Assembly (NCBI GenBank): GCA_947497245.1
Contig: CANMFO010000003.1
Coordinates: 372,001-436,000 of the forward strand
Source: an uncultured Flavobacteriaceae bacterium
GTDB lineage: Bacteria > Bacteroidota > Bacteroidia > Flavobacteriales > Flavobacteriaceae
DNA length: 64,000 nucleotides
Reading direction: 5' to 3'
This document shows, piece by piece, positions 1 through 19,579 of this stretch; positions within the stretch are counted from its first letter, which is position 1; each line of letters starts with the position of its first letter. The notes beneath the pieces were generated by a model, which worked only from the letters and a program-made list of their open reading frames with translations, was not told the origin of the DNA and made no database searches. The translations under genes and the position numbers were made by a program.

Positions 1-135
1 AATAAGATGAGTTTGGAAGCCTTGTTCTTAGGATTGAAATTCATCCATCGGGTGTATATTCCAAAGATAGCGCAAATTGCCGAAAAATGCCGTGTGCTGT
101 TCCCCTTAGGATGTTTTAAAAGGATACAAATTGCG

Positions 136-143
136 TACCTTTA
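136..143 (+). promoter_or_regulatory. -7 box of the Bacteroidota type for the flavin reductase gene
   Basis: TACCTTTA lies 7 bases before the ATG at 151 and fits TAnnTTTG with one mismatch at the last base. It supports the start at 151 over an in-frame upstream extension that lacks family similarity. I see no clear -33 TTG at proper spacing. Confidence 0.35.
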
Positions 144-150
144 TCCTTCG

Positions 151-1032
151 ATGACAAAAATGGTTTCCTTACTTCCGGCCGATATGCCCGTCCCTAAATT
201 GCATGGGTACCTTTTGGGGGCTATCGGGCCCCGGCCCATTGCTTTTGCCAGTACCATGGACGAAAACGGCAGGCCCAACCTGTCGCCCTTTAGCTTCTTC
301 AATGTTTTTAGTGCCAATCCCCCCGTATTGCTTTTCTCTCCGGCAAGAAGGGCACGGAACAACACCACCAAGCATACCTTGGACAACGTGCTGCGGACCA
401 GGGAGGTGGTGATCAATATTGTAAATTTTGATATGGTGCAGCAGATGTCGTTGGCAAGCACGGAATATCCCGAAGGGGAAAACGAATTTAAAAAGGCCGG
501 GCTGGGCATGTTGAAATCGGACCTTGTAAGACCCTATAGGGTGGCAGAATCCCCGGTACATTTTGAATGTAGGGTAAGTAAGGTCGAGGCTTTGGGAAAG
601 AAAGGCGGAGCAGGAAACCTGGTTTTCTCCGAAGTGGTGAAAATGCATATCGATCCGGCTGTTTTGGATGAAAACGGTAACGTGGATCAATTCAAGATCG
701 ATCAAGTGGCCCGTATGGGGGGCAATTGGTACAGTAGGGCCAATAAGGGCCTTTTTCAAGTGCCCAAACCACTTTCCACCCTGGGAATGGGGGTAGATCG
801 AATTCCGGAACACATCCGGCTCAGTAAAACACTCACAGGGAACGATTTGGGCATGTTGGGGACAGTCGAAGCACCCCCCTCCCCAAGGGAGGTGAATGAT
901 TTTGTGGCCTCCGACAAGGAAATACGGACCATTATCCGCAGTGGGGAACGGGAACTATTGGAATTGAAAGCTAAGGAATATTTGAACCGAAACGACGTAC
1001 TTTCCGCCTGGAAGATATTATTGGCCCCATGA
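151..1032 (+). CDS. Flavin reductase family protein (FMN-binding split barrel)
   Basis: The protein (about 293 residues from the ATG at 151) belongs to the flavin reductase/flavoredoxin family, which binds FMN in a split-barrel fold. The N-terminal stretch with GAIGPRPIAFASTMDENG and then NLSPFSFFNVFSANPP is the typical FMN-binding signature of this family. The open frame extends 48 codons further upstream, but that extension resembles nothing and a promoter-like TACCTTTA ends just before 151. A C-terminal extension of about 90 residues after the barrel is predicted helical and charged. The gene overlaps the next one by ATGA, so the two are probably co-transcribed. The physiological substrate is not evident; such proteins reduce flavin or act on small aromatic or quinone substrates. 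Confidence 0.88.
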   Translation: MTKMVSLLPADMPVPKLHGYLLGAIGPRPIAFASTMDENGRPNLSPFSFFNVFSANPPVLLFSPARRARNNTTKHTLDNVLRTREVVINIVNFDMVQQMSLASTEYPEGENEFKKAGLGMLKSDLVRPYRVAESPVHFECRVSKVEALGKKGGAGNLVFSEVVKMHIDPAVLDENGNVDQFKIDQVARMGGNWYSRANKGLFQVPKPLSTLGMGVDRIPEHIRLSKTLTGNDLGMLGTVEAPPSPREVNDFVASDKEIRTIIRSGERELLELKAKEYLNRNDVLSAWKILLAP

Positions 1033-1835
1033 AACGGATACAACTTTTTGAATTTGAAGATTTTAACTGGTTCCCAAACTGGTTGCGCAACTGTATGACC
1101 AAGCTGATCGTGGTACTCCACAAAATGATGGGTATCAGCGAGGTACTGGCCGGGTTGATGGCCAAGGCCCTTAAGGGAAAAAAACTGTCACAAATAGTGG
1201 ATTTGGGCTCCGGATCGGGCGGTGCAATGCCAGAAGTGATGAAAACCTTGCACGAGACCCAAGGGCTGGAACAGGTTTCCCTGATCCTTACGGACCTATA
1301 CCCAAATCCCGATTGTATCAGAAAATTCAACCAGGACACGAACGACAAGATCAGTTATAGCGAAATAGCCATCGATGCCACCGATATCGCCTCGGCTCCG
1401 GAGGGACTCAAAACCATGATCAACAGTTTTCACCATATGCCTCCGGACGCCGCACGAAAAATATTGGAATCCGCTGAAAAAAACCAACAGGCCCTGTTGA
1501 TCTATGAAATGGCGGAAAATAAAATTCCCTTGTTGGTATGGTGGGTGTTGTTGCCGATTTCATTGATAATACTCATGATCATGGTACTGTTTATGACCCC
1601 TTTTGTAAAACCCCTGACCTGGAAGCAAGTTGTCTTTACCTATTTGATTCCCATCATACCCATATGTTATGCCTGGGACGGTCAGGCCTCACTGCCCAGA
1701 ATGTACTCCCTTAAGGATGTGGACCAACTATTGGAAGGGCTGGGCTCGGAACGGTATAAATGGGAAAAGGGGCATGCCTTAAAAAGGAATGGTAAAAAAC
1801 TGGGTACTTTTATACTCGGACTTCCTTCGACCTAG
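1029..1835 (+). CDS. SAM-dependent methyltransferase-like protein with embedded membrane segments
   Basis: The 268-residue product carries the class I SAM-binding glycine loop VDLGSGSGGAMPEV near residues 57-70 and an acidic residue after the second strand (LILTDLYPNP), as expected for a Rossmann-fold methyltransferase. The motif NSFHHMPPDAAR near residue 140 resembles the post-IV region. Unusually, two hydrophobic stretches follow at about residues 165-190 and 198-212, separated by a short loop, so the enzyme is probably membrane-attached. The start overlaps the flavin reductase stop (ATGA), indicating translational coupling. The methyl acceptor is unknown; a hydrophobic substrate such as a lipid or quinone is an inference from the membrane segments and the flavin reductase neighbour. 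Confidence 0.75.
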   Translation: MKRIQLFEFEDFNWFPNWLRNCMTKLIVVLHKMMGISEVLAGLMAKALKGKKLSQIVDLGSGSGGAMPEVMKTLHETQGLEQVSLILTDLYPNPDCIRKFNQDTNDKISYSEIAIDATDIASAPEGLKTMINSFHHMPPDAARKILESAEKNQQALLIYEMAENKIPLLVWWVLLPISLIILMIMVLFMTPFVKPLTWKQVVFTYLIPIIPICYAWDGQASLPRMYSLKDVDQLLEGLGSERYKWEKGHALKRNGKKLGTFILGLPST

Positions 1836-2003
1836 TTTGGGCATGGCCCAGCTATTCAATTTGGGGGAAATGTACATGGATTTTGAAGCAGCGGTACCAT
1901 GGGTCAGCCCTTTCATGATCGGAAGAAGGTAGGGTTTCCGGGCCATCGATTGTTTTGTTTTCGATGAAGCGCTCATCAACTTTTCAACCGCCAATACTAC
2001 CTT

Positions 2004-2672
2004 ATGAAATTGCTCCACACCCTATGTTTGCTGACATTCTTGGCCACTGTGGATGTTCACTCCCAAAATCGGGAGGCCCACCGACAGGAAAACACAAATT
2101 CCTTTATAACCTTGAGCCTTTGGCCCATTGCCGATCCATATGCCCCTAGATTGAGGGTGGGGTATACCGCACACCTAAAGGGGCATTGGAAAGTGGGTTT
2201 GGACGCGGGTTACGGCAATGGTGCCCTGTCCTTTATGGCCAATGAGGAATTCCAAAACGAGTACAAACTTTGGGAGGTACGGCCGGAGGTGCACTACATC
2301 CTCAACCCTAAAAGCAGCACGATCAAATATCTTTCGGCCGAACTTTTTTACATACATCAGACCAATGTATTTCTGAACGGGGATTACACCACCGATGATG
2401 GAAATGACATTGCCTTTGACCAGGCAGACTACCAACGTCAAAAATACGGGATGCACTTTAAGTTCGGCCTTTTCCTGAATATAGGTAAAAACCTTGGCTT
2501 TAATTTTTATGGTGGAGTGGGTTTTCGTATCAGGGACAATCAGTACTCCAATACCATAAATCCAAGGGAGACCGATATTTTTAGGGAATGGTTTGCCCAG
2601 CCCAACGAATTTGAGGGCAGGGATTTCAACTTCAACCCCGCGCTGGGCATAAAGTTCTATTACAAAATATGA
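2004..2672 (+). CDS. Outer-membrane beta-barrel protein (DUF3575-like), hypothetical
   Basis: The 222-residue protein starts with a signal peptide (MKLLHTLCLLTFLATVDVHS, cleavage probably before QN). The rest shows alternating hydrophobic/polar strands rich in aromatic residues and glycine, for example LRVGYTAHLKGHWKVGLDAGY, and ends with FNPALGIKFYYKI, a short terminal beta-strand typical of outer-membrane barrels. It is similar in style to DUF3575 small barrel proteins. No ligand can be inferred. It follows the methyltransferase on the same strand after 168 bases and may have its own promoter. Confidence 0.62.
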   Translation: MKLLHTLCLLTFLATVDVHSQNREAHRQENTNSFITLSLWPIADPYAPRLRVGYTAHLKGHWKVGLDAGYGNGALSFMANEEFQNEYKLWEVRPEVHYILNPKSSTIKYLSAELFYIHQTNVFLNGDYTTDDGNDIAFDQADYQRQKYGMHFKFGLFLNIGKNLGFNFYGGVGFRIRDNQYSNTINPRETDIFREWFAQPNEFEGRDFNFNPALGIKFYYKI

Positions 2673-2777
2673 AGGGGATATCTATTTGATAACTTGCCTT
2701 GGTTTTGTTAGGTGTATTATGGTAATAAGCTTATTTTTATTGACTTTAAAATTTTAGTAGCCATATAATTCACAGTC

Positions 2778-3155
2778 ATGGAAATAGAAGGAAAGATTAA
2801 ATTGGTCGGAGAGACCCAAACGTTTGGAAGCAACGGATTTAGAAAGAGGGAAGTGGTCATTACCACCGAAGAGCAGTACCCACAGCATATCATGGTCGAG
2901 TTTGTTCAGGACAAAACGGAATTGTTGAACAATTTCAGCATAGGACAGGCCGTAAAAATCAGTATCAACCTTAGGGGCCGTGAATGGACCAACCCCCAGG
3001 GCGAGGTAAAGTATTTTAACTCCATTCAAGGATGGCGTATAGAAAGCCTGCAGCCCGAGCAAGGGGCTGGCGAAATACCACCGGCACCTCCAACGGAGGC
3101 CTTCGAACCCGCCGATAACCTCAATGAGGAAGACCACGACGATTTGCCATTTTAA
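2778..3155 (+). CDS. DUF3127 domain protein (single-strand-binding-like fold)
   Basis: The 125-residue protein matches the DUF3127 family: MEIEGKIKLVGETQTFG, then FRKREVVITTEEQYPQHI and VKISINLRGREW, which together resemble an OB-fold of the SSB type. The C-terminal third is acidic and proline rich and ends in an acidic tail (EEDHDDLPF). That tip strongly resembles the acidic DxPF protein-interaction tail of bacterial SSB, so a role in single-stranded DNA or RNA transactions is plausible but not established. A perfect terminator follows 47 bases downstream. Confidence 0.8.
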   Translation: MEIEGKIKLVGETQTFGSNGFRKREVVITTEEQYPQHIMVEFVQDKTELLNNFSIGQAVKISINLRGREWTNPQGEVKYFNSIQGWRIESLQPEQGAGEIPPAPPTEAFEPADNLNEEDHDDLPF

Positions 3156-3201
3156 AAGGTCTTTTCCAGGCCGCTGTTCCGGCCTGCCCCAACATATTTT
3201 T

Positions 3202-3230
3202 GACCCCGACCCCAGTGTCGGGGTCTTTTT
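3202..3230 (+). terminator. Rho-independent terminator after the DUF3127 gene
   Basis: A perfect 9-bp stem, GACCCCGAC (3202-3210) and GTCGGGGTC (3217-3225), encloses a 6-base loop and is followed directly by TTTTT. It ends the DUF3127 transcript and separates it from aat. Confidence 0.92.
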
Positions 3231-3269
3231 GTCAACTGTGTTCCCGTATGCCTGGTTCCCCTTTTTCCG

Positions 3270-3277
3270 TATCTTTA
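3270..3277 (+). promoter_or_regulatory. -7 box upstream of aat
   Basis: TATCTTTA matches TAnnTTTG except at the last base and lies about 45 bases before the ATG at 3322. It is only about 17 bases before the alternative TTG at 3295, which makes the later ATG the better start. Confidence 0.4.
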
Positions 3278-3321
3278 AATGAAAAGCTCCCGTTTTGAAA
3301 AAAGATACAGGATATCACCCG

Positions 3322-3966
3322 ATGTTCTTCCTTGGTGAATCATTGGAATTCCCACCGGTGGAAAATGCCAATGCCGAAGGACTTTTGGCAGTGGGCGGGG
3401 ACTTATCGTCGGCCCGATTGCTATTGGCCTACGAAAATGGGATTTTTCCTTGGTTCAACGAGGATTCACTAATTCTTTGGTGGAGTCCCGATCCCAGAAT
3501 GGTCCTTTTTCCAAAAGACGTGAAAATATCCAAAAGTATGCGCAAAGTGCTAAAAAGCGCCTCCTTTCGTTTGACCAAAAACCATTGTTTTGAAAGGGTG
3601 CTAGACCAATGTGCCAACATAAAAAGGGAGGGACAACAGGGCACTTGGATCACAAAGGAGATGAAACATGCCTATGTGGCCCTGCACAAAAAGGGTTTTG
3701 CCCAGTCCTATGAAGTATGGGAAGGCGATAATTTGGTTGGCGGATTGTACGGGATCGACCTGGGTCATGTATTTTGTGGGGAGAGCATGTTCAGTACAGC
3801 GGACAATGCTTCCAAATTTGCTTTTATCGAGTTGGTCCGGGAACTCGATCGGAAAAACTATAAACTTATCGATTGCCAACTGTACACCGAGCATTTGGCC
3901 AGCCTGGGGGCCATTGAAATACCCCGGACCGACTTTATCGAAATCTTAAGGGAAAAACAGCGATGA
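3322..3966 (+). CDS. aat: Leucyl/phenylalanyl-tRNA--protein transferase
   Basis: Aat transfers Leu or Phe from aminoacyl-tRNA to N-terminal Lys or Arg of proteins, creating N-degrons for ClpAP/ClpS. The family signature is clear: FPPVENANAEGLLAVGGDLS near the start, then YENGIFPWF, LWWSPDPRMVL, TWITKEMKHAYVALHKKGFAQSYEVW in outline, GGLYGIDLG, and FCGESMFS. Length (214 residues from the ATG at 3322) is normal. The open frame begins 9 codons earlier at a TTG (3295), but the family normally begins at the MFFL-type start and the promoter spacing favours 3322. Confidence 0.95.
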   Translation: MFFLGESLEFPPVENANAEGLLAVGGDLSSARLLLAYENGIFPWFNEDSLILWWSPDPRMVLFPKDVKISKSMRKVLKSASFRLTKNHCFERVLDQCANIKREGQQGTWITKEMKHAYVALHKKGFAQSYEVWEGDNLVGGLYGIDLGHVFCGESMFSTADNASKFAFIELVRELDRKNYKLIDCQLYTEHLASLGAIEIPRTDFIEILREKQR

Positions 3967-4134
3967 AATTCGTAAGAACAAGGTCTTTCGCCCCGTCCTC
4001 CTCCTGAAGCACCATGTGCGATTTTTAGCCCTGCCCCCTTTTTGTGAACGAACAAGGCCACCATTCCCCTTGGCGGGTAAAATCGTTTTGGGAAAAGGCC
4101 CCCGGCCACAAATAAAGGTCGGGCGCGCCGCTAG

Positions 4135-4716
4135 CTAATACAGTACATGGTCATAGTTTGGGGGTGGTGATTTCCGGATGTTCCTGAAATTCCCCTCGGC
4201 ATCAAAAAGAAGTTCGTAGCGCTCATGACCCCTCGTTTTCTTTCCTGAAACCATCAACGCATAGTTGATCGAGGGCAGCAAAAGGTTTTGGAACGCGTTT
4301 TTTAGCGTCTGTTCTTGCGATTCGCTCCCGATAACGGGGTACTGTTGCCGCATTTTGCGAACCCTTACCTTCTTGAAGGTTCGGGTCAGGTAATTTTGGA
4401 TGTGTTGCCAACTTGCATCGGGCAAGTCCACTTGTTTGACATCGATTTCTATTTCCTTTAATGTACCTTCCGCATTGAACGCCACCCCGTATCGGAGTCG
4501 GTCTCTTTTGAATTGGACCTCGTAGGTGATTCCGGTGCTGTCCATTTCCTTGTAATAACGGATTTTTCGCGCCTCTTCCAACTCTCCGGAAATAGTCTGC
4601 AGCGCTTTTTGGGGAAACTGCTTTTTGAGGATACGGAACGCGCGCTCATACTTGACCTGGGCCGTTCCCTGAACAACCATGGTACAGCAGAGAACCAAGA
4701 TCAAACTATACTTCAT
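4135..4716 (-). CDS. Small secreted protein, PepSY-like, hypothetical
   Basis: From the ATG at 4716 the product is 193 residues with a signal peptide (MKYSLILVLCCTMVVQGTAQ, cleavage near GTAQ/V). The mature part contains two similar segments, each with charged helices followed by strands (for example YEVQFKRDRLRYGVAFNAEG and YELLFDAEGNFRNI), a pattern like PepSY or BamE-type periplasmic inhibitor domains. No catalytic motif is visible. It lies directly downstream of tag, and its start overlaps the tag stop by 11 bases, so it is probably the second gene of that transcript. An alternative in-frame ATG at 4740 lies inside tag and would place extra residues before the signal peptide, so it is less likely. 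Confidence 0.6.
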   Translation of the reverse strand: MKYSLILVLCCTMVVQGTAQVKYERAFRILKKQFPQKALQTISGELEEARKIRYYKEMDSTGITYEVQFKRDRLRYGVAFNAEGTLKEIEIDVKQVDLPDASWQHIQNYLTRTFKKVRVRKMRQQYPVIGSESQEQTLKNAFQNLLLPSINYALMVSGKKTRGHERYELLFDAEGNFRNIRKSPPPNYDHVLY

Positions 4717-5269
4717 CGTATCTGAAACAATTGACCTCATGGTCGTTTACCATTCCCGTCGCCTGCATATGGGCGTAAACCACCGTGCTGCCCACAAATT
4801 TAAACCCCCGTTTCTTCAGGTCTTTGCTCAGGGCATCGGATATGGCGGAGGTGGCGGGGGCCTCCTTGTAGTTTTCGAGGGAATTTTTCACGGGACTTCC
4901 ATCGACAAACCCCCAGATGTAGGTGCTAAAGCTGCCAAACTCCCCCTGGATCTTCATAAATTGTTGGGCATTGGTGATGGTGGCATGTATCTTCAGTTTG
5001 TTTCTGACGATACCTGGGTCCTGTAGGAGCGCATCGATTTTTGACTGATCGTACCGCGCAATTTTTTTATAATCGAAATGATCGAATGCCTTTCTAAAAT
5101 TTTCCCGTTTTCGGAGGATGGTGATCCAGCTCAGCCCGGCCTGAAAGGTCTCTAGGATCAAAAATTCAAACAGGGTCGCATCGTCCCTTACCGGAACGCC
5201 CCATTCCAAATCGTGGTAGGCCTCGTACAGGTCGTCGCCCTTGCACCAACCGCATCTGTGTTTCCCCAT
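4706..5269 (-). CDS. tag: DNA-3-methyladenine glycosylase I
   Basis: Tag removes 3-methyladenine from alkylated DNA. The 187-residue product begins MGKHRCGWCKGDDLYEAYHD, which holds the N-terminal zinc-binding Cys and His of the family, then EWGVPVRDD and FQAGLSWITILRKRENFR. The C-terminal end HMQATGMVNDHEVNCFRY supplies the second His/Cys pair. The open frame continues upstream for 83 codons but only the start at 5269 fits family length. A secreted-protein gene overlaps its 3' end. Another alkylation-related gene, an alkyltransferase-like protein, lies elsewhere in the window (47829). Confidence 0.95.
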   Translation of the reverse strand: MGKHRCGWCKGDDLYEAYHDLEWGVPVRDDATLFEFLILETFQAGLSWITILRKRENFRKAFDHFDYKKIARYDQSKIDALLQDPGIVRNKLKIHATITNAQQFMKIQGEFGSFSTYIWGFVDGSPVKNSLENYKEAPATSAISDALSKDLKKRGFKFVGSTVVYAHMQATGMVNDHEVNCFRYDEV

Positions 5270-5511
5270 GGAATTGAATATGGAATTAAAGATAGCCCAA
5301 AAATTGAAAAATAGAGGAAAATATCTTGGCCAAAGACCTAAACTTTTGCCATGATGTGGGCTGGTATCACAGGCGATGCTTTTTAGATTCTGCGAGTGCG
5401 ACCACCATTGCACGGAACGTTTCCCGAAAGCACCGACCATGTTTTCCCTGGATAAACTAGCAAAGTGTGGTCCTGGCATGATCGGTGCACAGAGAACATT
5501 AACACTAAACA

Positions 5512-5525
5512 TGTTCAATTGAACA
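5512..5525. repeat. 14-base perfect palindrome, possible operator
   Basis: TGTTCAATTGAACA is a perfect even palindrome about 40 bases upstream of the AGTAnTACT pair and 120 bases before the TetR start codon. It may bind a different dimeric regulator. The assignment rests on symmetry alone. Confidence 0.4.
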
Positions 5526-5553
5526 GCTCAAATTTAGGGTCGAAGCACGTCAA

Positions 5554-5612
5554 AATAGTATTACTTTCGTTAAATGTTAGTTAAACTATTGAATTATGAT
5601 AGTAATACTATT
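5554..5612. promoter_or_regulatory. Paired inverted repeats, candidate TetR operators
   Basis: AATAGTATTACT (5554-5565) and its exact reverse complement AGTAATACTATT (5601-5612) form a perfect 12-bp inverted repeat with a 35-base spacer. Each arm is itself built on the odd palindrome AGTA-n-TACT, and the second extends to ATAGTA-A-TACTAT (5599-5611). The two centres (5561 and 5605) are 44 bases apart, close to four helical turns. The first copy overlaps a -7-like box, so binding there would block transcription of the TetR-ABC-HlyD-TolC operon that begins at 5645. Confidence 0.6.
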
Positions 5613-5644
5613 AATTTTGAACCCGAAAACAAAACACAAAAAAT

Positions 5645-6322
5645 ATGGAACGTCTACTGCAATCCGTAAAAATTTCTATCAACGAGAACATCTATGTAAA
5701 AGATCCCGAGTCGTCCAATTTGGGAAAACGCATCGTGGAGGAGAGCATTTTGATGATTCATGATATGGGTTTTGAAAGTTTTACCTTTAAGAAACTGGGA
5801 ATGCAGATCGGGTCCAACGAAAGTTCCATTTACCGTTATTTTGAGAACAAGCATAAGCTATTGCTCTACCTGACCTCTTGGTATTGGGGATGGCTGGAAT
5901 ATCAATTGGTATTCTCGACCAACAGTATTGCCGCTCCTTCCAAAAAATTGGGAAAGGCCATTGAAATAGTTACCAAGACCACACAGAAAGATTCCGCTTT
6001 TTCGCATATCAACGAGGTGGTTTTGAACAAGATCGTGATCAACGAGTATTCCAAGTCGTACTTGACCAAAGAGGTCGACCAGGAAAACAAGGAGGGGTAT
6101 TTCACTATTTACAAAAGGCTGGTCGATCGGATCAGCGAAATGATCCGGGAGGTGGATGAAGATTATCCCTATCCCTCCAGCCTGTCCAGCACCATTCTGG
6201 AGGGCTCGCTGCACCAACATTTTCTGAAAGATCATTTCACATCGTTGACCGATTGTCGCAAGGCCAACGATCCTTCCCAATATTTTACACACTTGGTTTT
6301 CAACTTGCTTAGGGAAAAATAA
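5645..6322 (+). CDS. TetR/AcrR family transcriptional regulator
   Basis: The 225-residue protein has an N-terminal TetR-type helix-turn-helix at about residues 22-72: GKRIVEESILMIHDMGFESF, FTFKKLGMQIGSNESSIYRY, then YFENKHKLLLYL. The C-terminal ligand domain is not like any class I know. The start lies 33 bases after the second candidate operator. The gene is followed after a single base by the ABC transporter gene, so the regulator probably controls its own operon, as is usual for TetR proteins with efflux genes. The inducer is unknown. Confidence 0.88.
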   Translation: MERLLQSVKISINENIYVKDPESSNLGKRIVEESILMIHDMGFESFTFKKLGMQIGSNESSIYRYFENKHKLLLYLTSWYWGWLEYQLVFSTNSIAAPSKKLGKAIEIVTKTTQKDSAFSHINEVVLNKIVINEYSKSYLTKEVDQENKEGYFTIYKRLVDRISEMIREVDEDYPYPSSLSSTILEGSLHQHFLKDHFTSLTDCRKANDPSQYFTHLVFNLLREK

Positions 6323-6323
6323 T

Positions 6324-7991
6324 ATGGCAAAAACGGTAATGACCGCTTGGCAAAGGCTGGTCGGTCTTTTAAAACTGGACAAAAAGGACGTATTTCAGGT
6401 TTTTTATTACGCCATTTTTGCCGGTCTGGTGAACCTCTCGCTTCCCTTGGGCATACAGGCCATTGTCAATTTGATACAAGGGGCCCAGGTCAGTACGTCC
6501 TGGATTGTTTTGGTGACCTTGGTCACCCTGGGTGTGGCCTTTGTTGGAATCCTACAGCTGATGCAGATCCGAATCATAGAGAACTTACAGCAGAAAATTT
6601 TTACAAGGGCCTCCTTTGAATTTGCCTATCGTTTCCCAAAGATTAAAATGAGCGAGCTTCGGAACTATTACCCCCCCGAGCTTGCCAATAGGTTTTTCGA
6701 TACCCTCACCGTACAAAAAGGGTTGGCCAAGATACTCGTCGATTTTCCCGCGGCCCTGCTGCAGATTATTTTTGGCCTGATGCTGCTCTCCTTTTATCAC
6801 CCGTTCTTCATTATTTATGGAATTCTACTGTTGCTGTTGGTTTATATTGTATTCAAATTTACCGCACAGCGCGGATTGGAGACCAGCTTGGACGAATCCA
6901 GGAACAAGTACAGGGTGGCGCATTGGATCCAAGAAGTGGCGCGGTCCATTGTTGGGTTTAAACTATCCGGCAGGACCACCCATGCCATGGACAAAAACGA
7001 TACACTGGTTGCGGATTATCTGGGTGCCAGGGAAAGCCACTTTAAAGTGCTGGTGGTTCAGTTTGTCCAAATGATCGGGTTTAAGGTGTTGGTCACAGCG
7101 GGATTATTGCTCATTGGGGGACTTTTGGTGCTCAATCAGGAAATGAACATAGGCCAGTTTGTTGCAGCCGAACTCATTATTCTCTTGATCATTGGATCCG
7201 TGGAAAAGTTGATCCTTGGCCTGGAATCCGTCTACGATGTGCTCACCTCTTTGGAAAAATTGGGGCAAGTGGTCGACAAGGAATTGGAACCCCAGGAAGG
7301 CGAACGTCCATTCAAGGAAGGGGAAGGTTTTACCTTGGAACTGGATCAGGTGGGATATCAGGTACCGGGAAGTACCAAAAAGATCCTCAGTGATATTTCT
7401 CTGCGCATAACCCCCAGCTGTAAAATTTTGGTGCAAGGCCCCAGTGGTTCCGGAAAGTCTACCCTCTTGCGCCTCATTGCCGGAATCCTTGAGCCGACCG
7501 TCGGGAATATTTATGTCAACGATGTATCGCTCCAGGGACTTAATCTGAACGAATACAGGTCTTATCTGGGACAATCCTTGACGGAAGAGTACCCCTTTGA
7601 AGGTACTTTGGAAGACAATATCACCTTCGGGGACCCTGCCGTGACGGGTAAGGAGATCTATTGGGCCTTGGAGAAAACAGGTCTTACCCAGTTTGTGAAA
7701 TCACAGGAGCAAGGACTAAAAACGGTACTTTACCCGGAAGGGAAGCAGATACCGTATACCGTATCGAGGAAGATTGTTCTGGCCAGGAGCATTATCAGAA
7801 GGCCCAAACTTCTGGTACTTATAGATCCATTGGACCAATTCGATGAAAGGGAAGCAAAGAAAATTATGGCATTTCTGACAGACCCTTCCAACGGATGGGC
7901 ATTGCTGGTGGTCAGTCAAAACCCCAGATGGATGGATGGGTGCAGTCGGATCATAACGATGAAAGAGGGCAGGATTATCGAAGAAAAATAG
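6324..7991 (+). CDS. ABC exporter-type protein (membrane plus nucleotide-binding domain) with degenerate catalytic motifs
   Basis: The 555-residue half-transporter has about six membrane segments (residues 28-300) and a C-terminal nucleotide-binding domain (about 335-555). Walker A is intact (GPSGSGKST, about 372-380). The remaining motifs are changed. The Q-loop reads LTEEYPFEG, with Thr for Gln. The signature reads IPYTVSRKIVLAR in place of LSGGQ. Walker B reads KLLVLIDPLDQFD, with Ile for the Asp and Asp for the catalytic Glu. The H-loop reads VVSQNP, with Gln (532) for His. The MsbA-type protein at 51316-53052 has all canonical residues, so the contrast is real. With the HlyD and TolC genes downstream it forms a type I secretion-like tripartite exporter. 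It may hydrolyse ATP poorly, act as a nucleotide-gated scaffold, or need a partner subunit encoded elsewhere. Confidence 0.85.
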   Translation: MAKTVMTAWQRLVGLLKLDKKDVFQVFYYAIFAGLVNLSLPLGIQAIVNLIQGAQVSTSWIVLVTLVTLGVAFVGILQLMQIRIIENLQQKIFTRASFEFAYRFPKIKMSELRNYYPPELANRFFDTLTVQKGLAKILVDFPAALLQIIFGLMLLSFYHPFFIIYGILLLLLVYIVFKFTAQRGLETSLDESRNKYRVAHWIQEVARSIVGFKLSGRTTHAMDKNDTLVADYLGARESHFKVLVVQFVQMIGFKVLVTAGLLLIGGLLVLNQEMNIGQFVAAELIILLIIGSVEKLILGLESVYDVLTSLEKLGQVVDKELEPQEGERPFKEGEGFTLELDQVGYQVPGSTKKILSDISLRITPSCKILVQGPSGSGKSTLLRLIAGILEPTVGNIYVNDVSLQGLNLNEYRSYLGQSLTEEYPFEGTLEDNITFGDPAVTGKEIYWALEKTGLTQFVKSQEQGLKTVLYPEGKQIPYTVSRKIVLARSIIRRPKLLVLIDPLDQFDEREAKKIMAFLTDPSNGWALLVVSQNPRWMDGCSRIITMKEGRIIEEK

Positions 7992-7997
7992 AAACGG

Positions 7998-9350
7998 ATG
8001 TTGAACATTTCATACAATAAGCTGAATAGAAAAGTTGATATCACAGGGTACAAATCGGGCCAAAAAGTGTTTCACAACAGGCATTACAAACACCTCAACA
8101 GGTTTTTATTGGGTTTTACGCTTATCGGCTTTTTTGTGCTTTTTTTGCCATGGACCCAGAGCGTAACGGGGGAGGGTTACCTCACGACACTGACCCTGGA
8201 CCAAAGGCCACAGACCATTCAATCGCCCATTCCTGGGCGTATTGAAAAGTGGTTTGTACGCGAAGGTGATTTTGTGGAAAAAGGAGATACCATCCTTTAT
8301 ATTTCAGAAATAAAGAACGAGTACTTCGATCCCAAATTGGTCGAGAGAACGAGCGATCAGATCAAGGCCAAGGCCATGTCCGTGGTCGCTTACGAAGAAA
8401 AGGTAAGCGCCCTGAACAATCAGATCGGGGCCTTGGGCCGGGAACGTGGACTTAAGCTAGAACAGGCCAAGAACAAACTGATACAGTCCAAATTGAAGGT
8501 CGTCAGCGATAGCATTGATCTTGAAGCGGCCAAAACCAATATCGGGATCGCCCGGAGGCAGTACGATCGAACCTTGCAACTACAGGGCGAAGGGCTCAAG
8601 GCTGTGACCGATGTAGAGGAAAAACGCCTAAAATTACAGGAGACCCAGGCCAAACTGATCTCCCAGGAAAATAAATTGCTTGCCAGCAAAAATGCGATTG
8701 TTAATGCAGAACTGGAGATAAACAGGGTAAGGGCGGAGTATACCGACAAGATTTCCAAGGCCCAAAGCGACATGTACACGGCCCGGTCGAGCCAATTTGA
8801 TTCGAAGGCCCAGGTGACCAAGTTGGAAAATGAATACACCAATTACGAAATGCGAAGTGAGATGTATTACATAAGAGCGCCGCAAAACGGGTACATCAAC
8901 AAAGCGCTCCAGGCCGGTATTGGGGAGACCTTTAAGGAAGGCGACCAATTGGTGGGGATAATGCCGGCCGAATACGATATGGCCGTGGAAACCTTTGTCA
9001 CGCCCTTGGACCTGCCCCTGATCCATTTAGGGGAGAAAGTGAGGATACAGTTCGACGGCTGGCCGGCAATCGTGTTCAGCGGTTGGCCCAACATTTCATA
9101 TGGCACCTACGGGGGCGAGGTGGTGGCCATTGAAACCTTTATCAGCAAAAATGGAAAGTACAGGGTATTGTTGGAGCCCGATCCCAACGATCACCCATGG
9201 CCAAAAGATATCCGTGTGGGATCTGGGGCCAGCACCATTGCCCTTTTGGAGGATGTTCCCATATGGTACGAACTGTGGAGACAGCTCAATGGCTTTCCAC
9301 CGAATTATTACCAACCAGAAAAGGCGATGGCCAAATCGACCAGAAAGTAA
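7998..9350 (+). CDS. HlyD family membrane-fusion (periplasmic adaptor) protein
   Basis: The 450-residue protein has a single N-terminal membrane anchor (about residues 33-50, FLLGFTLIGFFVLFLPW), a biotinyl-lipoyl-like half (IQSPIPGRIEKWFVREGDFV), a long Ala/Lys/Gln-rich coiled-coil hairpin (about 110-290), the second lipoyl half (IRAPQNGYINKA) and a C-terminal barrel region. This is the usual order for adaptors that bridge an inner-membrane exporter to TolC. It follows the ABC gene by 6 bases and is followed by the TolC gene after 1 base. Confidence 0.93.
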   Translation: MLNISYNKLNRKVDITGYKSGQKVFHNRHYKHLNRFLLGFTLIGFFVLFLPWTQSVTGEGYLTTLTLDQRPQTIQSPIPGRIEKWFVREGDFVEKGDTILYISEIKNEYFDPKLVERTSDQIKAKAMSVVAYEEKVSALNNQIGALGRERGLKLEQAKNKLIQSKLKVVSDSIDLEAAKTNIGIARRQYDRTLQLQGEGLKAVTDVEEKRLKLQETQAKLISQENKLLASKNAIVNAELEINRVRAEYTDKISKAQSDMYTARSSQFDSKAQVTKLENEYTNYEMRSEMYYIRAPQNGYINKALQAGIGETFKEGDQLVGIMPAEYDMAVETFVTPLDLPLIHLGEKVRIQFDGWPAIVFSGWPNISYGTYGGEVVAIETFISKNGKYRVLLEPDPNDHPWPKDIRVGSGASTIALLEDVPIWYELWRQLNGFPPNYYQPEKAMAKSTRK

Positions 9351-9351
9351 T

Positions 9352-10755
9352 ATGGGAAAACTTCTTTTTTTAATAGCGGTTTGGTGTGTGCCATTTCAGA
9401 CCCTCTTGGGCCAGGATAGCACTGTGCTGTCGTTCAAAGAATATTTGGGATATGTGAAAAGGTACCATCCCATTGCCAAACAAGCCGAATTGACCCTTGA
9501 TATCGGGCAGGCGAATTTAATGAGGTCCCGAGGGGGTTTCGACCCAAGGATAGAGGTCGATTATGAACGTAAAAAATTCAAAAACACGGAATACTACGAT
9601 CGCTTGAACACCACTTTTAAGATTCCTACCTGGTATGGAGTGGAGCTCAAAGGGAAGTATGAACAAAACGAGGGTGTTTTTTTGAATCCTGCTGAAAACG
9701 TCCCCGCCGATGGGCTGTACAGCGCCGGAGTGTCAGTTTCCCTGGGCCGTGGCTCCTGGATCAACGAACGCATGGCCACACTGAGGCGGGCCAAATTTTT
9801 CAGGGAGCGTTCCAGGGCCGATAGGGACCTGCTGATCAACCAGATCTTGTACGATGCGGCTTTGTCCTATTTTGAGTGGTTACGGGCATATCGCGAAACG
9901 GCAATCTATCGGGACTTTTTAAGGAATGCCCAAATCAGGTTCGAAGGGACAAGAAGTAGGGCCGTGGCGGGCGATATCGCTGCCATTGACACCGTGGAGG
10001 CAAAGATTGCCATGCAAAATAGGGCCTTAAACTTGGAGCAGGCCACCCTGAAGTTGGCCAACAGCTCTTTAGAACTTGCCAATTTTCTTTGGATGGGAGA
10101 TAATATCCCCATGGAACTGCGGCCCAACGTGGTTCCCGACATCGGTTCGGAAGCCGATATCGATGTCACCTTGGAAATAATGGGGAAGCCATTGGACAGC
10201 TTCCTCCTGGAAAATCACCCCAAGTTAGAATCCCTGAGCTACAAAATAAAGGGTCTAGAGGTCGATAAGAGTCTAAAGACCAATAAGCTGATGCCAAAAA
10301 TGGACTTGGAGTACAATTTCCTGACGGAAACTCCGGAATTGATCGGTTCGTTGGCAGGCGGGGAGTATAAGGGAGGGATCCATTTTATGTTTCCATTGTT
10401 CCTAAGAAAGGAGCGGGGCGAGTTGAAACTGGCCAAATTCAAACTAAGGGACGCCCAATATGAGTTCGACAATGCCGAATTACAGCTTCGGAACAAGGTC
10501 CTGGCCATTTACAACGAACTGGAGTCGTATCGGTCGCAGACCCAACAGATCGGTGCCATTGTGGAAAGTTACGCTACACTCCGGGCCGCGGAAGAGCGAA
10601 AGTTCAGTTTTGGGGAGAGTTCACTGTTCCTGATCAATGTGCGGGAAAACAAGCTCATCGATGCCCAATTGAAGGAAATACATATTCAGAACAAATTTTT
10701 TAGGACCAAAGCAAAATTGTTTAATAGTTTGGCGGTGGTCCCCAAGAATTTGTGA
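9352..10755 (+). CDS. TolC family outer-membrane efflux protein
   Basis: From the ATG at 9352 the product is 467 residues with a signal peptide (MGKLLFLIAVWCVPFQTLLG, then QDS). The mature part has two long repeated helical segments with the TolC-type pattern (LSFKEYLGYVKRYHPIAKQA; LLENHPKLESLSYKIKGLEV) and strands between them. The open frame extends upstream into hlyD, but the signal peptide fixes the start. It is the last gene of the tetR operon, giving the outer-membrane exit for the exporter. Confidence 0.9.
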   Translation: MGKLLFLIAVWCVPFQTLLGQDSTVLSFKEYLGYVKRYHPIAKQAELTLDIGQANLMRSRGGFDPRIEVDYERKKFKNTEYYDRLNTTFKIPTWYGVELKGKYEQNEGVFLNPAENVPADGLYSAGVSVSLGRGSWINERMATLRRAKFFRERSRADRDLLINQILYDAALSYFEWLRAYRETAIYRDFLRNAQIRFEGTRSRAVAGDIAAIDTVEAKIAMQNRALNLEQATLKLANSSLELANFLWMGDNIPMELRPNVVPDIGSEADIDVTLEIMGKPLDSFLLENHPKLESLSYKIKGLEVDKSLKTNKLMPKMDLEYNFLTETPELIGSLAGGEYKGGIHFMFPLFLRKERGELKLAKFKLRDAQYEFDNAELQLRNKVLAIYNELESYRSQTQQIGAIVESYATLRAAEERKFSFGESSLFLINVRENKLIDAQLKEIHIQNKFFRTKAKLFNSLAVVPKNL

Positions 10756-10835
10756 TTTTGAAATTTAACGGGAATTGGTCCTGGGGGACCGCTTAAAAAG
10801 GATACCTTCAACACACGCTTAAAACCTAAAATCAT

Positions 10836-11765
10836 ATGGGAGCCAGATCAAAAACTGATTTTTATGTCCTGGGCCACTTCAGGTCGTATTTGAAGCGATC
10901 CAGAACGTTTAGGGTTACGGTCAAGTCCTTTTTCAAGGATGTTTTCTTCATCATAGTGGGAATTTTTTCCGCGGCCTTTGGACTGGAGAGCTTTTTGCTC
11001 CCGAACCGATTTATTGATGGGGGTGCCACTGGAATTTCGCTTTTGGTCAGCGAGGTGACCCATTTGCCGCTTTATCTTTTGGTTGTATTGGTCAACGTTC
11101 CTTTTTTGGTGCTGGGATTCAATGTTATCGGCAAACGGTTTACCATAAAGGCCAGTTTGGCCATTTTGGGCCTTGCACTGGTCCTGGCGACCATTAGTTT
11201 TCCGGAAGTGACCCAGGACAAGCTGTTGGTCGCTGTCTTTGGTGGCTTCTTCCTGGGTGCGGGCATCGGCCTTTCCATTAGGGGTGGTGGTGTACTGGAC
11301 GGTACCGAGGTGCTGGCCATTTTCCTCAGTCGAAAGATGGGTGCTACCATTGGGGATGTGATCATATTGATCAACATCGTTATTTTCTTGACCGCTGCAT
11401 ATCTATTGTCCATGGAAACCGCGCTCTATTCCATGCTTACCTATTTGGCGGCTTCCAAAACACTCGATTTTGTTGTCGAAGGAATAGAGGAATATACCGG
11501 TGTAACGATTATTTCCGTGAAAAGCGAGGAAATAAGGGCCATGATCATTGAGCGGATGGGCCGCGGTGTTACACTCTACAAGGCTAGGGGCGGCTTTGCC
11601 AAAAACGGGGCCCATAGAGAATACGAGGTCATCTTCACGGTCATCAGCCGATTGGAAATTCGAAAATTGAATATTGAAATCTCCAAAATCGACCCAAAGG
11701 CCTTTGTGGTCATGAACAAGATCAACGATACCCGGGGCGGGATGATCAAAAAGCGCATTTTGTAA
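10836..11765 (+). CDS. YitT family membrane protein (DUF161 plus DUF2179)
   Basis: The 309-residue protein has about five to six membrane segments with the YitT signatures LPNRFIDGGATGISLLVSEV, GIGLSIRGGGVLDGTEVLAI and a C-terminal soluble DUF2179 domain (MGRGVTLYKARGGFAKNGAH in outline). Function of the family is not firmly known; transport of a small ion or amino acid has been proposed. The first ~30 residues are charged and poorly conserved, so an internal start is possible. It is transcribed alone. Confidence 0.9.
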   Translation: MGARSKTDFYVLGHFRSYLKRSRTFRVTVKSFFKDVFFIIVGIFSAAFGLESFLLPNRFIDGGATGISLLVSEVTHLPLYLLVVLVNVPFLVLGFNVIGKRFTIKASLAILGLALVLATISFPEVTQDKLLVAVFGGFFLGAGIGLSIRGGGVLDGTEVLAIFLSRKMGATIGDVIILINIVIFLTAAYLLSMETALYSMLTYLAASKTLDFVVEGIEEYTGVTIISVKSEEIRAMIIERMGRGVTLYKARGGFAKNGAHREYEVIFTVISRLEIRKLNIEISKIDPKAFVVMNKINDTRGGMIKKRIL

Positions 11766-11807
11766 GGTTTCGGGACTTCATACTACTTAGGGTATCTGGT
11801 TTGGCAA

Positions 11808-11840
11808 TTGATTTTAACGGATGAACCCATAATATATTTC
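11808..11840 (+). promoter_or_regulatory. Promoter of the thioredoxin-like gene (-33 TTG, -7 TATATTTC)
   Basis: TTG at 11808-11810 and TATATTTC at 11833-11840 are separated by 22 bases, within the range for Bacteroidota promoters. The ATG at 11854 follows 13 bases after the -7 box. Confidence 0.5.
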
Positions 11841-11853
11841 TAATCGATATCGT

Positions 11854-12489
11854 ATGGAAACAAGTGTTTTACAACCTATGGAAAAGATCGCCGGCGAACT
11901 GATTCGGGAGAGCCTTCCCACTGCAATGTCCTATGAAGCCTATAGGGCGAGGGTAACCCAACTTGCCGAAGCCGGAAAATCCACGGGTCCGCAACAGACC
12001 GAGGCCCTGACCAATTATACCCAATTGAACGACAAGCGAATGAAGCGCTGGGACAAGACCCTAAAGTTCGGTCCGGAAGTGGTCGATGCCTTGAACGCCC
12101 AGCATAAAAAAATCACCTGGTTGGTACTTACCGAAAGTTGGTGCGGGGACGCCTCCCCATCGATGCCTGTGATGAACAAAATGGCGGAATTGAGCCCGAA
12201 CATCTCCTTAAAGGTGCTGTTGCGCGATGAAAATATAGAGTTGATGGACCGCTTTCTTACCGATGGTGCACGGTCCATTCCCAAATTGATCATCGTTGAC
12301 GATGCAACGGGGGAGACCATTGGATCCTGGGGCCCCCGATCGACCAATGCCACAACCTTGGTGGATGCCTACAAACAGAAGCATGGAGAATTGACACCAG
12401 AGTTCAAGCAAGACCTACAGATTTGGTACAATAAGGATAAAGGGCAAAGTGTGGTGGAAGACCTTCTATCGGGCCTTCGGTTGGAATAG
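11854..12489 (+). CDS. Thioredoxin-like family protein with a single-cysteine WCGDASPS motif
   Basis: The 211-residue cytoplasmic protein has a thioredoxin-like fold: ITWLVLTESWCGDASPSMPV around residues 88-106, then ISLKVLLRDEN, the cis-Pro region ARSIPKLIIVD, and ETIGSWGPR. The active-site CxxC is replaced by C-G-D-A, leaving one cysteine (C97), so it cannot form the usual disulfide; Bacteroidota have a family of such WCGD proteins. A role in redox sensing or thiol conjugation is possible. Its 3' end overlaps the convergent TonB-like gene by 24 bases. Confidence 0.8.
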   Translation: METSVLQPMEKIAGELIRESLPTAMSYEAYRARVTQLAEAGKSTGPQQTEALTNYTQLNDKRMKRWDKTLKFGPEVVDALNAQHKKITWLVLTESWCGDASPSMPVMNKMAELSPNISLKVLLRDENIELMDRFLTDGARSIPKLIIVDDATGETIGSWGPRSTNATTLVDAYKQKHGELTPEFKQDLQIWYNKDKGQSVVEDLLSGLRLE

Positions 12490-13200
12490 ATACGTAATGG
12501 TGCCCTTTTGTAGGGTTTTTGTCGAAGAGCTGAATTTTGCCTTTAGCGCATAGGTAACGGCATTATCCACTAAGCATCCATTTGAGGTTCCGGAGCTCTT
12601 GGCATTAAAATCGGCCGCGATTACGTTTCCCAGGGCGTCCACTTCAATGTTAATGACCACTTTTCCACCTTCAATGCAGGTGTAGATGGGCGGAGGTAGT
12701 CGATAATTGTTCCGATCGACCAAAGAATAGGAAACCGAGGTCCGTCGCTTGGCCAAATGATTGGTGAATTCCTCCTTCTTGGCTTCCTTCTCCCCCAGCA
12801 GTTGTTTTTTTTCTTCCCTTTTTTTGGCGAGTTCCTTTACCTTGGCAGCATACTCCGAATCCGAAATCAGGTCGCTTGGATCTTCACTGTCCGATAGCGC
12901 CTCCTTCTCCTCCATGAGTTCCTCCAGGGTCTTTAGGGGCTCGGGGTTCCCAAAACTGGGTTTGGCCGTTTCGTTGAAGGCCATATGGCTTTTGATGGGA
13001 TCGGCCTTGGCCAATTCCTCCAATAATTTCTCCTCTTCCTTCAGCAATTCTTCTATATCCTCTTCGGCCAACATCATTTCCACGATGTACTCGTCCTCTT
13101 TCTCCGCCTGTCCAAGTTGGATATTGTACAATACCAGAACCACAATCGACATGGTGAAGAAAGTGATCAAAAATGATAATTGCTTGCGATTGAGGTTCAT
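12466..13200 (-). CDS. TonB-like energy transducer with an acidic coiled-coil linker
   Basis: The 244-residue protein has an N-terminal membrane anchor (LSFLITFFTMSIVVLVLYNI, residues 9-28), a long highly charged Glu/Lys-rich middle (about 35-160), and a C-terminal TonB-type domain (about 165-244) with CIEGGKVVINIEVDALGNVI and a final KGTITYLFQPKAR strand. TonB couples inner-membrane proton motive force to outer-membrane receptors. The usual Pro-rich spacer is replaced by predicted coiled coil, so it is a divergent member and may not serve classic receptors. Convergent 24-base overlap with the thioredoxin-like gene. Confidence 0.72.
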   Translation of the reverse strand: MNLNRKQLSFLITFFTMSIVVLVLYNIQLGQAEKEDEYIVEMMLAEEDIEELLKEEEKLLEELAKADPIKSHMAFNETAKPSFGNPEPLKTLEELMEEKEALSDSEDPSDLISDSEYAAKVKELAKKREEKKQLLGEKEAKKEEFTNHLAKRRTSVSYSLVDRNNYRLPPPIYTCIEGGKVVINIEVDALGNVIAADFNAKSSGTSNGCLVDNAVTYALKAKFSSSTKTLQKGTITYLFQPKAR

Positions 13201-13270
13201 AGTGCTATAACCACAATTTTAAAAAAATATTTTAATTCATCGTCAAACGGAAAGTTAATTGAGACAATTT

Positions 13271-13993
13271 TTAGGGATTGTCCCATTTTCCGAGCAAATT
13301 TTCCCCAAAAATGCTGGGGTCAAGGGCATTATTTACGTTGTAATCCCCTATTTTGGTTCTCCGCAACTCGGATAAATGTGCACCGCTGCCCAGTACCTGT
13401 CCCAAATCATGTGCCAAAGATCGGATATATGTGCCTTTACTGCAGACCGCCCGAAATTTGATGTTCGGTAGGTCGACCTGGGTACTTTCGAACTCGAAAA
13501 GGGTCACTTTTCTGGTTTTTATGGCCACTTCCTTCCCTTCCCGGGCGTACTCGTAAAGGCGTTTCCCATCTTTTTTCAAGGCGGAGAACACAGGAGGCCG
13601 CTGTTCGATCTCCCCGATGAATTGCGGAAGGGTATCCCTGATAAGTTCTGGGGTAATATGGTCTATGGGAAAAATTTGGTCTACCTCGGTTTCTAGGTCG
13701 AAGGAAGGGGTCGTAGCGCCTAGGGTAATGGTCCCCGTGTATTCCTTTGGCTGCCCTTGCAGTTCATTGATCGTTTTGGTGAACTTGCCCGTGCAGATCA
13801 AAAGGAGTCCGGTCGCAAGGGGGTCTAGGGTGCCCGCATGCCCGATTTTGATCTTTTTCAGTTCGAATTTCTTGCGGATGGCCCATTTAATTTTATTCAC
13901 CGCTTGAAAAGACGACCAACCGAGCGGCTTGTCGATGAGCAGCAGTTGTCCGTTTAGGAAATCTTCTTTTGTCCGTGAATCCATATCGGGCAA
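13271..13993 (-). CDS. truB: tRNA pseudouridine(55) synthase
   Basis: TruB converts U55 of the tRNA T-loop to pseudouridine. The 240-residue product shows the family core: LLLIDKPLGWSSFQAVNKIK, the catalytic motif KIGHAGTLDPLATGLLLIC with its Asp, then KEYTGTITLGATT, QRPPVFSALKKDGKRLYEYA and GTYIRSLAHDLGQVLGSGAH. It is the last gene of the ftsX-DUF3098-uppP-truB run, 36 bases after uppP. An internal ATG three codons in is an equally good start. Confidence 0.96.
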   Translation of the reverse strand: MPDMDSRTKEDFLNGQLLLIDKPLGWSSFQAVNKIKWAIRKKFELKKIKIGHAGTLDPLATGLLLICTGKFTKTINELQGQPKEYTGTITLGATTPSFDLETEVDQIFPIDHITPELIRDTLPQFIGEIEQRPPVFSALKKDGKRLYEYAREGKEVAIKTRKVTLFEFESTQVDLPNIKFRAVCSKGTYIRSLAHDLGQVLGSGAHLSELRRTKIGDYNVNNALDPSIFGENLLGKWDNP

Positions 13994-14029
13994 TTTTTAG
14001 TGGCCGTTTTGTTCGGGGCAATGGTGCGC

Positions 14030-14824
14030 TTAGGCAAAGTAACCGTAGCCGATGGCAATCAGGCCCACAATCAGACAGTAGATCGCGAAATATGAGAGCT
14101 TGCTATTTTTTACGAGCTGGATCATCCAAGTACAGGCCGCAAGGCCCGCTACAAAGGCGGCGATAAATCCTGCCGCCAGGGCCAGGTTGTTCTCCCCGCT
14201 AAAGTTGAGCTCTCCGCTCATGAGATCTTTTCCGATTTTTCCAAAGATCAGCGGTACGGCCATCAAAAAGGAAAAACGGGCCGCTTTGCTCTTGTCGACG
14301 CCCAGTAGAACGGAGGTGGATATGGTGGCCCCACTTCTTGAAATCCCAGGGAGCATAGCGATAGCTTGGGAAACTCCGATAACAAAAGCGTTCGAAAAGG
14401 TCACTTTGTGATTGGTGTCTTTGGCCTTGTCGGCAAAATAGAGGAGCATCGCCGTAATCAACAGCATAAAGCCCACAAAGCGAAAGTTTCCGCCAAAAAA
14501 AGCTTCCAATTGCGTTTCAAAAAAAAGTCCCACGGCCATGGCGGGCAACATCGAAACAATAATTTTTAAAGAAAATTGGGTTTCTTCGTTCCATTTGAAA
14601 TCAAAAAGGCTACGGAAAATCTCCCAAACATCCTTTCGGAAAACCACCATTGTGCTCAAGGCCGTGGCAAAATGCAGGACTACGGTGAACAAAAGACTGT
14701 CCTCTGCGACGGAACTATCCCCCAAAATGGCTTTTCCCAGTTCCAGGTGGCCGCTCGAGGATACAGGTAAAAACTCGGTCAATCCTTGGATAATGCCAAG
14801 GATGATGGCGTCTAGAATGTCCAA
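14030..14824 (-). CDS. uppP: Undecaprenyl-diphosphate phosphatase (BacA family)
   Basis: UppP recycles the lipid carrier for cell-wall and polysaccharide synthesis by dephosphorylating undecaprenyl diphosphate at the membrane. The 264-residue protein has about seven membrane segments and both signatures: GIIQGLTEFLPVSSSGHLEL at the N-terminus (with catalytic Glu and the Ser/His run) and AMLPGISRSGATIS near residue 160 with the conserved Arg. Its start lies one base after the DUF3098 stop, so the genes are co-transcribed. Confidence 0.97.
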   Translation of the reverse strand: MDILDAIILGIIQGLTEFLPVSSSGHLELGKAILGDSSVAEDSLLFTVVLHFATALSTMVVFRKDVWEIFRSLFDFKWNEETQFSLKIIVSMLPAMAVGLFFETQLEAFFGGNFRFVGFMLLITAMLLYFADKAKDTNHKVTFSNAFVIGVSQAIAMLPGISRSGATISTSVLLGVDKSKAARFSFLMAVPLIFGKIGKDLMSGELNFSGENNLALAAGFIAAFVAGLAACTWMIQLVKNSKLSYFAIYCLIVGLIAIGYGYFA

Positions 14825-14825
14825 A

Positions 14826-15095: not shown

Positions 15096-15104
15096 GCTGC
15101 AAAT

Positions 15105-15989: not shown

Positions 15990-16029
15990 GTATGAAGGTG
16001 TAAAAATAGGAAAGTAAATCGAATAAACT

Positions 16030-19554: not shown

Positions 19555-19579
19555 AGTTACCAATAAAAATAGAAAAGTT

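Follow-up and report, generated by a model that had tools for sequence, protein, structure and literature searches.

EmrAB-TolC is a proton-driven inner-membrane pump that works with an HlyD-like adaptor and TolC, and its membrane component, EmrB, is an MFS protein with another fold. Among ABC exporters, TmrAB and TM287/288 have undergone partial loss of catalytic residues and keep one working site, from the partner chain. The evidence known to us for pumping without ATP by the transmembrane domains (TMDs) of ABC proteins comes from the importer SbmA and from truncated MsbA and LmrA. SbmA is reported to be a relative of ABC TMDs that has lost the nucleotide-binding domain (NBD) together with the coupling helices and that is driven by protons through conserved glutamates (PMC13316013). 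Furthermore, MsbA without its NBD is reported to show drug efflux driven by a pH gradient, and the exporter TMDs MsbA-MD and LmrA-MD to move drugs, again by the proton gradient and without an NBD (PMC4979069).

Here we analyze a stretch of 64,000 nucleotides (hereinafter, the window) from the genome of an uncultured Flavobacteriaceae bacterium (contig CANMFO010000003.1, positions 372,001 to 436,000), with a focus on an ABC-type exporter that has a degenerate NBD and is encoded together with a TetR-family regulator, an HlyD-type adaptor and a TolC-type channel (Table 1). The operon has the three-part layout and the fold of the type I secretion exporters LssB, HlyB and PrtD, and differs from these systems in the loss of the ATPase motifs and in the presence of a TetR gene. 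The HlyD and TolC partners typical of type I systems are encoded in the operon; the best NCBIfam model of the exporter is TIGR03375 (LssB), at 183.8 bits against a cut-off of 693.1, and two other type I models also score below their cut-offs (144.7 vs. 725.55 and 134.9 vs. 510.15 bits). The adaptor matches the EmrA model weakly (56.6 bits vs. a cut-off of 390.8). The exporter shares its fold with the heterodimeric TmrAB and TM287/288 (Foldseek), but, in contrast to these, no partner gene is conserved beside it: a canonical half-transporter is absent from its side in the window and present in one family of relatives, f66. A search by title and abstract, confined to open-licence PubMed Central, found no earlier description of this family, which might have been described elsewhere.

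Organization of the Operon and State of the Nucleotide-binding Motifs

The exporter passes the Pfam cut-offs for ABC_membrane (PF00664; 30.5 bits) and ABC_tran (52.7 bits), with scores far below those of the canonical exporter at 51316-53067 against the same models (161.1 and 116.1 bits). Foldseek matches its AlphaFold model, of modest quality (mean pLDDT 68), to TmrAB, Sav1866, PrtD and HlyB, so that the type IV fold of the TMD is supported both by PF00664 and by structural matches at this level of model confidence. A single base separates the end of tetR from the exporter ATG, which indicates a four-gene operon (TetR, exporter, HlyD, TolC); the gaps that follow are 6 bases between the exporter stop codon and the HlyD start, and 1 base between the HlyD stop and the Met that we chose as the TolC start (9352). 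No phage record matched the exporter protein at E 1e-30, and positions 1-20000 of the window yielded no Rfam match at gathering scores.

Table 1. Features of the exporter operon, in window coordinates.
Feature	Position	Strand	Basis or remark
Further operator-like site ATAGTATTACTTT, differing from ATAGTAWTACTAT at one position	5555..5567	.	window pattern scan; putative function
Palindromic operator ATAGTAATACTAT upstream of tetR	5599..5611	.	putative operator
TetR-family regulator, first gene of the operon	5645..6322	+	Pfam TetR_N
Exporter ORF	6324..7991	+	555 aa, 0 internal stops; ATPase-dead type IV ABC fold
TMD, residues 1-322	6324..7289	+	six long helices in the structure model
ICL2 segment, residues 198-226	6915..7001	+	least kept of six TMD regions in each NBD-less clade
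Glu283, TM6 of the model (mean pLDDT 68)	7170..7172	+	candidate proton site
Pseudo-NBD, residues 338-555	7335..7988	+	ABC_tran match at residues 355-499; catalytic motifs gone
Walker A GPSGSGKST, intact	7437..7463	+	alignment
Q-loop position, Gln to Thr420	7581..7583	+	alignment
Signature position, LSGGQ to IPYTV	7749..7763	+	alignment
Walker B Asp to Ile500, catalytic Glu to Asp501	7821..7826	+	alignment
H-loop position, His to Gln532	7917..7919	+	alignment
HlyD-type periplasmic adaptor	7998..9350	+	Pfam HlyD_3, Biotin_lipoyl_2; conserved next gene
TolC-type outer membrane channel	9352..10755	+	Pfam OEP; start codon chosen by us; conserved

We set the motif positions by aligning the protein with five further exporters encoded in this genome. 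An earlier note on this DNA had described an exporter stripped of most catalytic motifs with Walker A kept, and the alignment confirms this at each position named; in addition, the A-loop Tyr is replaced by Val. The Asp at the position of the catalytic Glu is by itself not striking because one of the five comparison exporters likewise carries Asp there. Among the hallmarks of ATP-driven ABC exporters, the type IV TMD and Walker A are present, and the Q-loop Gln, the signature, the Walker B Asp, the catalytic Glu and the H-loop His are absent. Judging by these motifs, the NBD can hardly hydrolyze ATP.

Fixed Losses and Purifying Selection in Near Relatives

A scan of 84,980 species genomes detected relatives at E 1e-3 in 526 stretches, and ordinary ABC proteins may be among these matches. 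The best 80 of the 526 were read and gave a near set of 77 distinct relatives, including the window copy, the others being 70-87% identical. By record titles, these best 80 of 526 come from Flavobacteriaceae and from one bin named only Bacteroidetes; most of the genera are presumed members of Flavobacteriaceae.

The catalytic residues are missing throughout this set: the Q-loop Gln and the Walker B Asp are retained in 0 of 77 relatives, and the catalytic Glu and the H-loop His in 1 of 77 each. Moreover, the A-loop aromatic is missing in 77/77, and Walker A itself shows substitutions, Lys to Arg in 6 relatives and Ser/Thr to Asn/Ala in 13. In place of the Walker B Asp, 71 of the 77 have Lys, the Ile being peculiar to the window copy, and the positions of the lost motifs hold other conserved residues (e.g., SLxEExPFEG, PEGKQIP, KDPLDQF, SxNxxW). 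The reading frame is continuous to the H-loop in all 77 relatives, and HlyD and TolC genes follow in 73/73 of the near loci whose downstream flank is 3.2 kb or longer. Median dN/dS over 11 near pairs is 0.015 for the TMD and 0.036 for the NBD, the NBD being higher in 11/11, and the corresponding medians for 11 pairs among the other degenerate members are 0.022 and 0.075 (NBD higher in 10/11), all approximate values since dS is about 1.2-1.4; for the closest relative of the window copy, silent sites are saturated. Mean column entropy is also lower in the TMD than in the NBD.

The view of the earlier note that the exporter is maintained, not decayed, within a full tripartite operon is borne out by the fixed changes, the intact frames, the conserved operon and the low dN/dS. 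The note had proposed the homologue alignment and the dN/dS comparison, and had named canonical motifs in homologues and stops in close relatives as the signs that would speak against maintenance; the near relatives have neither, and purifying selection acts on both domains. Sequencing or assembly error is ruled out given that the same positions are altered in near relatives, and decay is ruled out for this set by the intact frames, the conserved operon and the low dN/dS.

A Putative Private Operator

In 73/73 of the near loci whose upstream sequence spans 1.2 kb or more, the TetR gene lies upstream on the same strand; farther loci have it on the same strand in only 66 of 152 cases, with divergent orientation in 6 more. 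In the near upstream regions, the palindrome ATAGTAWTACTAT precedes tetR exactly in 39 of 76, with at most one mismatch in 72/76 and with at most two in 76/76, the mismatch counts standing without a control. Exact sites number 40 across 1.01 Mb of near loci, 39 of them upstream of tetR, and the 5.25 Mb window genome has a single one. The position of the palindrome together with its uniqueness in the genome points to a private, self-regulated operon.

Farther Relatives and Degrees of NBD Degeneration

The order has matches in 66 of 196 genomes and the phylum in 76 of 296, and a TMD-only query matched 145 of 295 genomes of the class. These samples overlap, and many of the genomes are draft assemblies in many contigs. 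The main set consists of 242 distinct members, including 5 TMD-only proteins and 9 TMD-HlyD fusions, and 3 members cut by contig ends were excluded. In the automatic alignment of the 225 NBD-bearing members, the full catalytic set (Q-loop Gln, signature Ser and Gly, Walker B Asp, Glu, His) occurs in none. Seventeen of the 225 keep Walker A, the Walker B Asp, the Glu and the His without the Q-loop Gln, and, on the strength of these motifs, may be ATPases. At the other extreme, Walker A with its Ser/Thr is the sole tested feature retained in 135/225; 20 members have lost either the Lys or the first Gly of Walker A, and inspection by eye found no P-loop in L170, L244-L246 and L248-L250. The partner genes follow in most farther loci, HlyD in 106 of 108 (fusions counted) and TolC in 104. 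Single stops were flagged in the farther copies G163, G545, G510, G823, G836, G160 and G945.

The family extends to Sphingomonadales, where tblastn located it on 15 of 22 matching plasmid records. In the eight of these 15 loci that were examined (L275-L282), the NBD lacks the P-loop in 8/8, and adaptor and TolC genes come next in 8/8, the adaptor of L280 being annotated as a 'biotin/lipoyl-binding protein'. Genes for LysR-type regulators adjoin the sphingomonad trio in three of the eight loci (L279, L280 and L282), and a Sphingopyxis copy (L272:6689-9446) is interrupted and lies beside an IS3-family transposase gene.

In family f66 (L252-L256), a gene for an ABC half-transporter with canonical motifs is located 0.06-1.3 kb upstream of the degenerate one in 5/5 loci read; by this arrangement, the f66 exporters may be heterodimeric. 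Many distant members (L131-L156, e.g., P0010, P0011 and P0012) are extended at the N-terminus by 130-260 residues, a very rough estimate; in the three members tested, no Pfam match above cut-off was found in this extension. A C-terminal motif like WYELWRQxNGFP is recurrent in the adaptors of the family (in the window, 7998-9350), being found in 134/225 by a strict and in 185/225 by a loose definition; the motif is missing in five of the nine fusions.

Relatives Without an NBD

TMD-only frames were found in one family in 24 of the 66 genomes with a match (151 searched), and two further families contributed one such genome each; 20 of the 24 and the two others were read (22 in total). For full-length TMD-HlyD fusions, the numbers are 10 of 88 genomes in one family, 34 of 87 in one order and one in each of three more families, for a total of 47 fusions, 22 of which were read. 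Two frames that run into contig ends (L227, L233) were left out of the TMD-only count; short frames (G846, G851, G747) and partial or broken fusions (G875, G876, G944, G940) were not counted as NBD-less, the fusion of G876, an incomplete genome, having five internal stops.

The HlyD gene adjoins all 22 TMD-only genes read, and TolC is present in the 5/5 TMD-only loci with enough flank and in 22/22 fusion loci read; dN/dS in three TMD-only pairs is 0.029-0.068. No separate NBD gene was detected near the gene in L122-L125 and L127-L130, except for a weak P-loop match in L123 more than 3 kb away, nor in L232 and L239-L243, nor in 17 further fusion loci. Among the 22 TMD-only loci, there is one NBD-like fragment, a 102-aa open frame within 1.5 kb of the TMD-only gene in L299. 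In the fusion group L239-L243, 5/5 loci have tetR in divergent orientation relative to the fused gene and not ahead of it on the same strand.

For phylogenetic analysis, the 242 members were thinned by identity and length to 62, and the tree of their TMDs requires three changes between presence and absence of the NBD. Placement of all NBD-less rows in one clade is rejected (p-AU 9.8e-5) and that of the two fusion groups in one clade is rejected more weakly (p-AU 0.028), in a tree that has several long branches and an outgroup that did not form one clean side of a first, quick tree. Group names, based on architecture, were assigned after that quick tree and before the careful one. Canonical exporters are too distant to fix the root of the family.

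Conserved and Eroded Regions of the TMD

In canonical exporters, ICL2 docks the NBD. Residues 198-226, which we take to be the ICL2 (second coupling loop) of type IV exporters, contain ten conserved columns whose retention is 0.83 in NBD-bearing members and falls to 0.54 in TMD-only proteins and, in the fusion groups, to 0.30 and 0.14. For ICL1, the retention is 0.91 in TMD-only proteins and 0.62 and 0.45 in the fusion groups. Other TMD regions have drifted too (TM5 to 0.70 in TMD-only proteins; 0.45-0.88 in fusions, with TM3-TM4 down to 0.61), so that ICL2 is the extreme of a gradient and not the sole change.

The TMD also has residues that are invariant within the family and not so in other exporters. 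Glu283 (E283) is kept in 145 of 148 farther NBD-bearing members, in 44/44 NBD-less members read and in 8/8 sphingomonad members; the five other exporters of the window's genome have T, Q, L, F or M at this position. K132 and K195 are likewise kept in 44/44 NBD-less members read and in 8/8 sphingomonad members. The sphingomonad members have lost E86 in 7/8 cases and K254, E294 and K295 in 8/8, indicating that a long acidic ladder like that of SbmA is not general. Given that the 17 possible ATPases share the family TMD, E283 alone proves no ion coupling, and the TMD signature, E283 included, could serve substrate binding with no tie to the loss of ATPase activity.

Discussion

The persistence of NBD-less members in the same operon implies that ATP hydrolysis in cis is unnecessary for the role of those members. 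From the dead NBD and the shared TMD signature, we infer that the window protein works like them. We consider it reasonably probable that the window exporter is an ABC-derived exporter that works without ATP hydrolysis as the inner-membrane part of an inducible tripartite pump, possibly driven by protons. Proton coupling is what we infer by analogy with SbmA (PMC13316013) and NBD-free MsbA (PMC4979069). Among the three ideas put forward in the earlier note, that of a different energy source is the one that the sequences suggest as the best fit because relatives have lost the whole NBD, three times according to the tree.

Under the proposed mechanism, the exporter would descend from an ATP-driven type IV ABC exporter, and a TMD homodimer would cycle through alternating access to move the substrate with no need to hydrolyze ATP, most likely by proton exchange, or else by exchange for another ion or down the substrate gradient. 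Glu283 of TM6 would be the likely protonation site, and the positions of Lys132 and Lys195 would form part of a cytoplasmic gate. Because selection acts on the dead NBD in the window's lineage, this domain probably serves a structural or regulatory function, conceivably as a clamp or a regulatory domain. TetR would leave its operator upon binding a ligand, probably one related to the exported compound.

Such ATP-independent export has to be weighed against the action of an ATPase encoded elsewhere, either a lone NBD shared between pumps or a canonical half-transporter in a heterodimer. Heterodimers in which one site is degenerate are a familiar type of exporter, the window's genome has other ABC exporters, and f66 supplies an arrangement of this kind in each of the five loci read. 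However, loci with another NBD gene within 6 kb are few (1 among the 66 near and 10 among the 92 farther ones), and the only other match to the exporter protein in the window is an exporter 43 kb away. Furthermore, ICL2 is eroded in all three NBD-less groups, and, since coupling helices associate TMD and NBD (PMC13316013), this loss argues against a replacement NBD in trans. These observations weaken the unlinked ATPase partner suggested in the earlier note, and we regard it as rather unlikely.

Alternatively, ATP bound at the intact Walker A could, without being hydrolyzed, toggle the dead dimer, which would act as a sensor or gate while transport follows the substrate gradient. The retention of both the first Gly and the Lys of Walker A in 205 of the 225 NBD-bearing members and the purifying selection on the NBD are compatible with such a switch, and the protein may be the nucleotide-sensing scaffold envisaged in the earlier note. 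Nevertheless, the near relatives uniformly lack the A-loop aromatic and some have substitutions in Walker A, and other branches have lost the P-loop or the whole NBD with the operon intact, which makes nucleotide binding dispensable to those systems; we judge an ATP-binding switch to be improbable. It is also conceivable that the protein is no longer a transporter and now serves as a membrane scaffold, keeping HlyD and TolC in place for a different transporter or for the envelope of the cell; the fusion of HlyD to the TMD in two groups is compatible with this as well. The TMD, however, is the better conserved half and has residues whose invariance is confined to the family and does not extend to other exporters, and a regulated operon with its own operator resembles a pump; a pure scaffold therefore appears quite improbable, and we retain export without ATP hydrolysis as the preferred reading.

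On a broader scale, a lineage that comprises Bacteroidota and sphingomonads might have turned from ATP-driven to ion-driven export, with the stages still alive: loss of the Q-loop, of catalysis and of the P-loop, deletion of the NBD in three lineages, and fusion of the TMD to the adaptor. We are evenly divided as to whether this scenario is correct, and the suggested order of the steps is our reading, which hinges on rooting the tree beside the 17 ATPase-like members.

The NBD-less relatives resemble the SLiPTs (SbmA, BacA), which are described as ABC-type TMD dimers without NBD or coupling helices, and differ from SbmA in that the latter is an importer with extra TM0 helices (PMC13316013). 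The window protein itself carries a pseudo-NBD, and only relatives of it are devoid of an NBD. In contrast to the SLiPTs, the loss of the NBD is recurrent here, and relatives with a dead NBD survive. The SbmA Pfam model matches neither the window protein nor the TMD-only proteins P0007 and P0008, which match ABC_membrane instead, and a PDB sequence search with one TMD-only protein returned seven chains (best E 0.36), none of them SbmA. SbmA is not known to have an HlyD or TolC partner. MsbA-MD and LmrA-MD are artificial truncations of ATP-driven pumps, whereas the truncations described here are natural and common to many species.

The present analysis implies that some genes annotated as 'ABC transporter ATP-binding protein' probably encode no ATPase. 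Moreover, natural truncation has apparently occurred several times within one export family in which dead-NBD relatives are alive, so that a comparison of relatives offers a test of the switch from primary to secondary transport. If the ion-driven reading is true, this family would represent a further way of powering tripartite export pumps.
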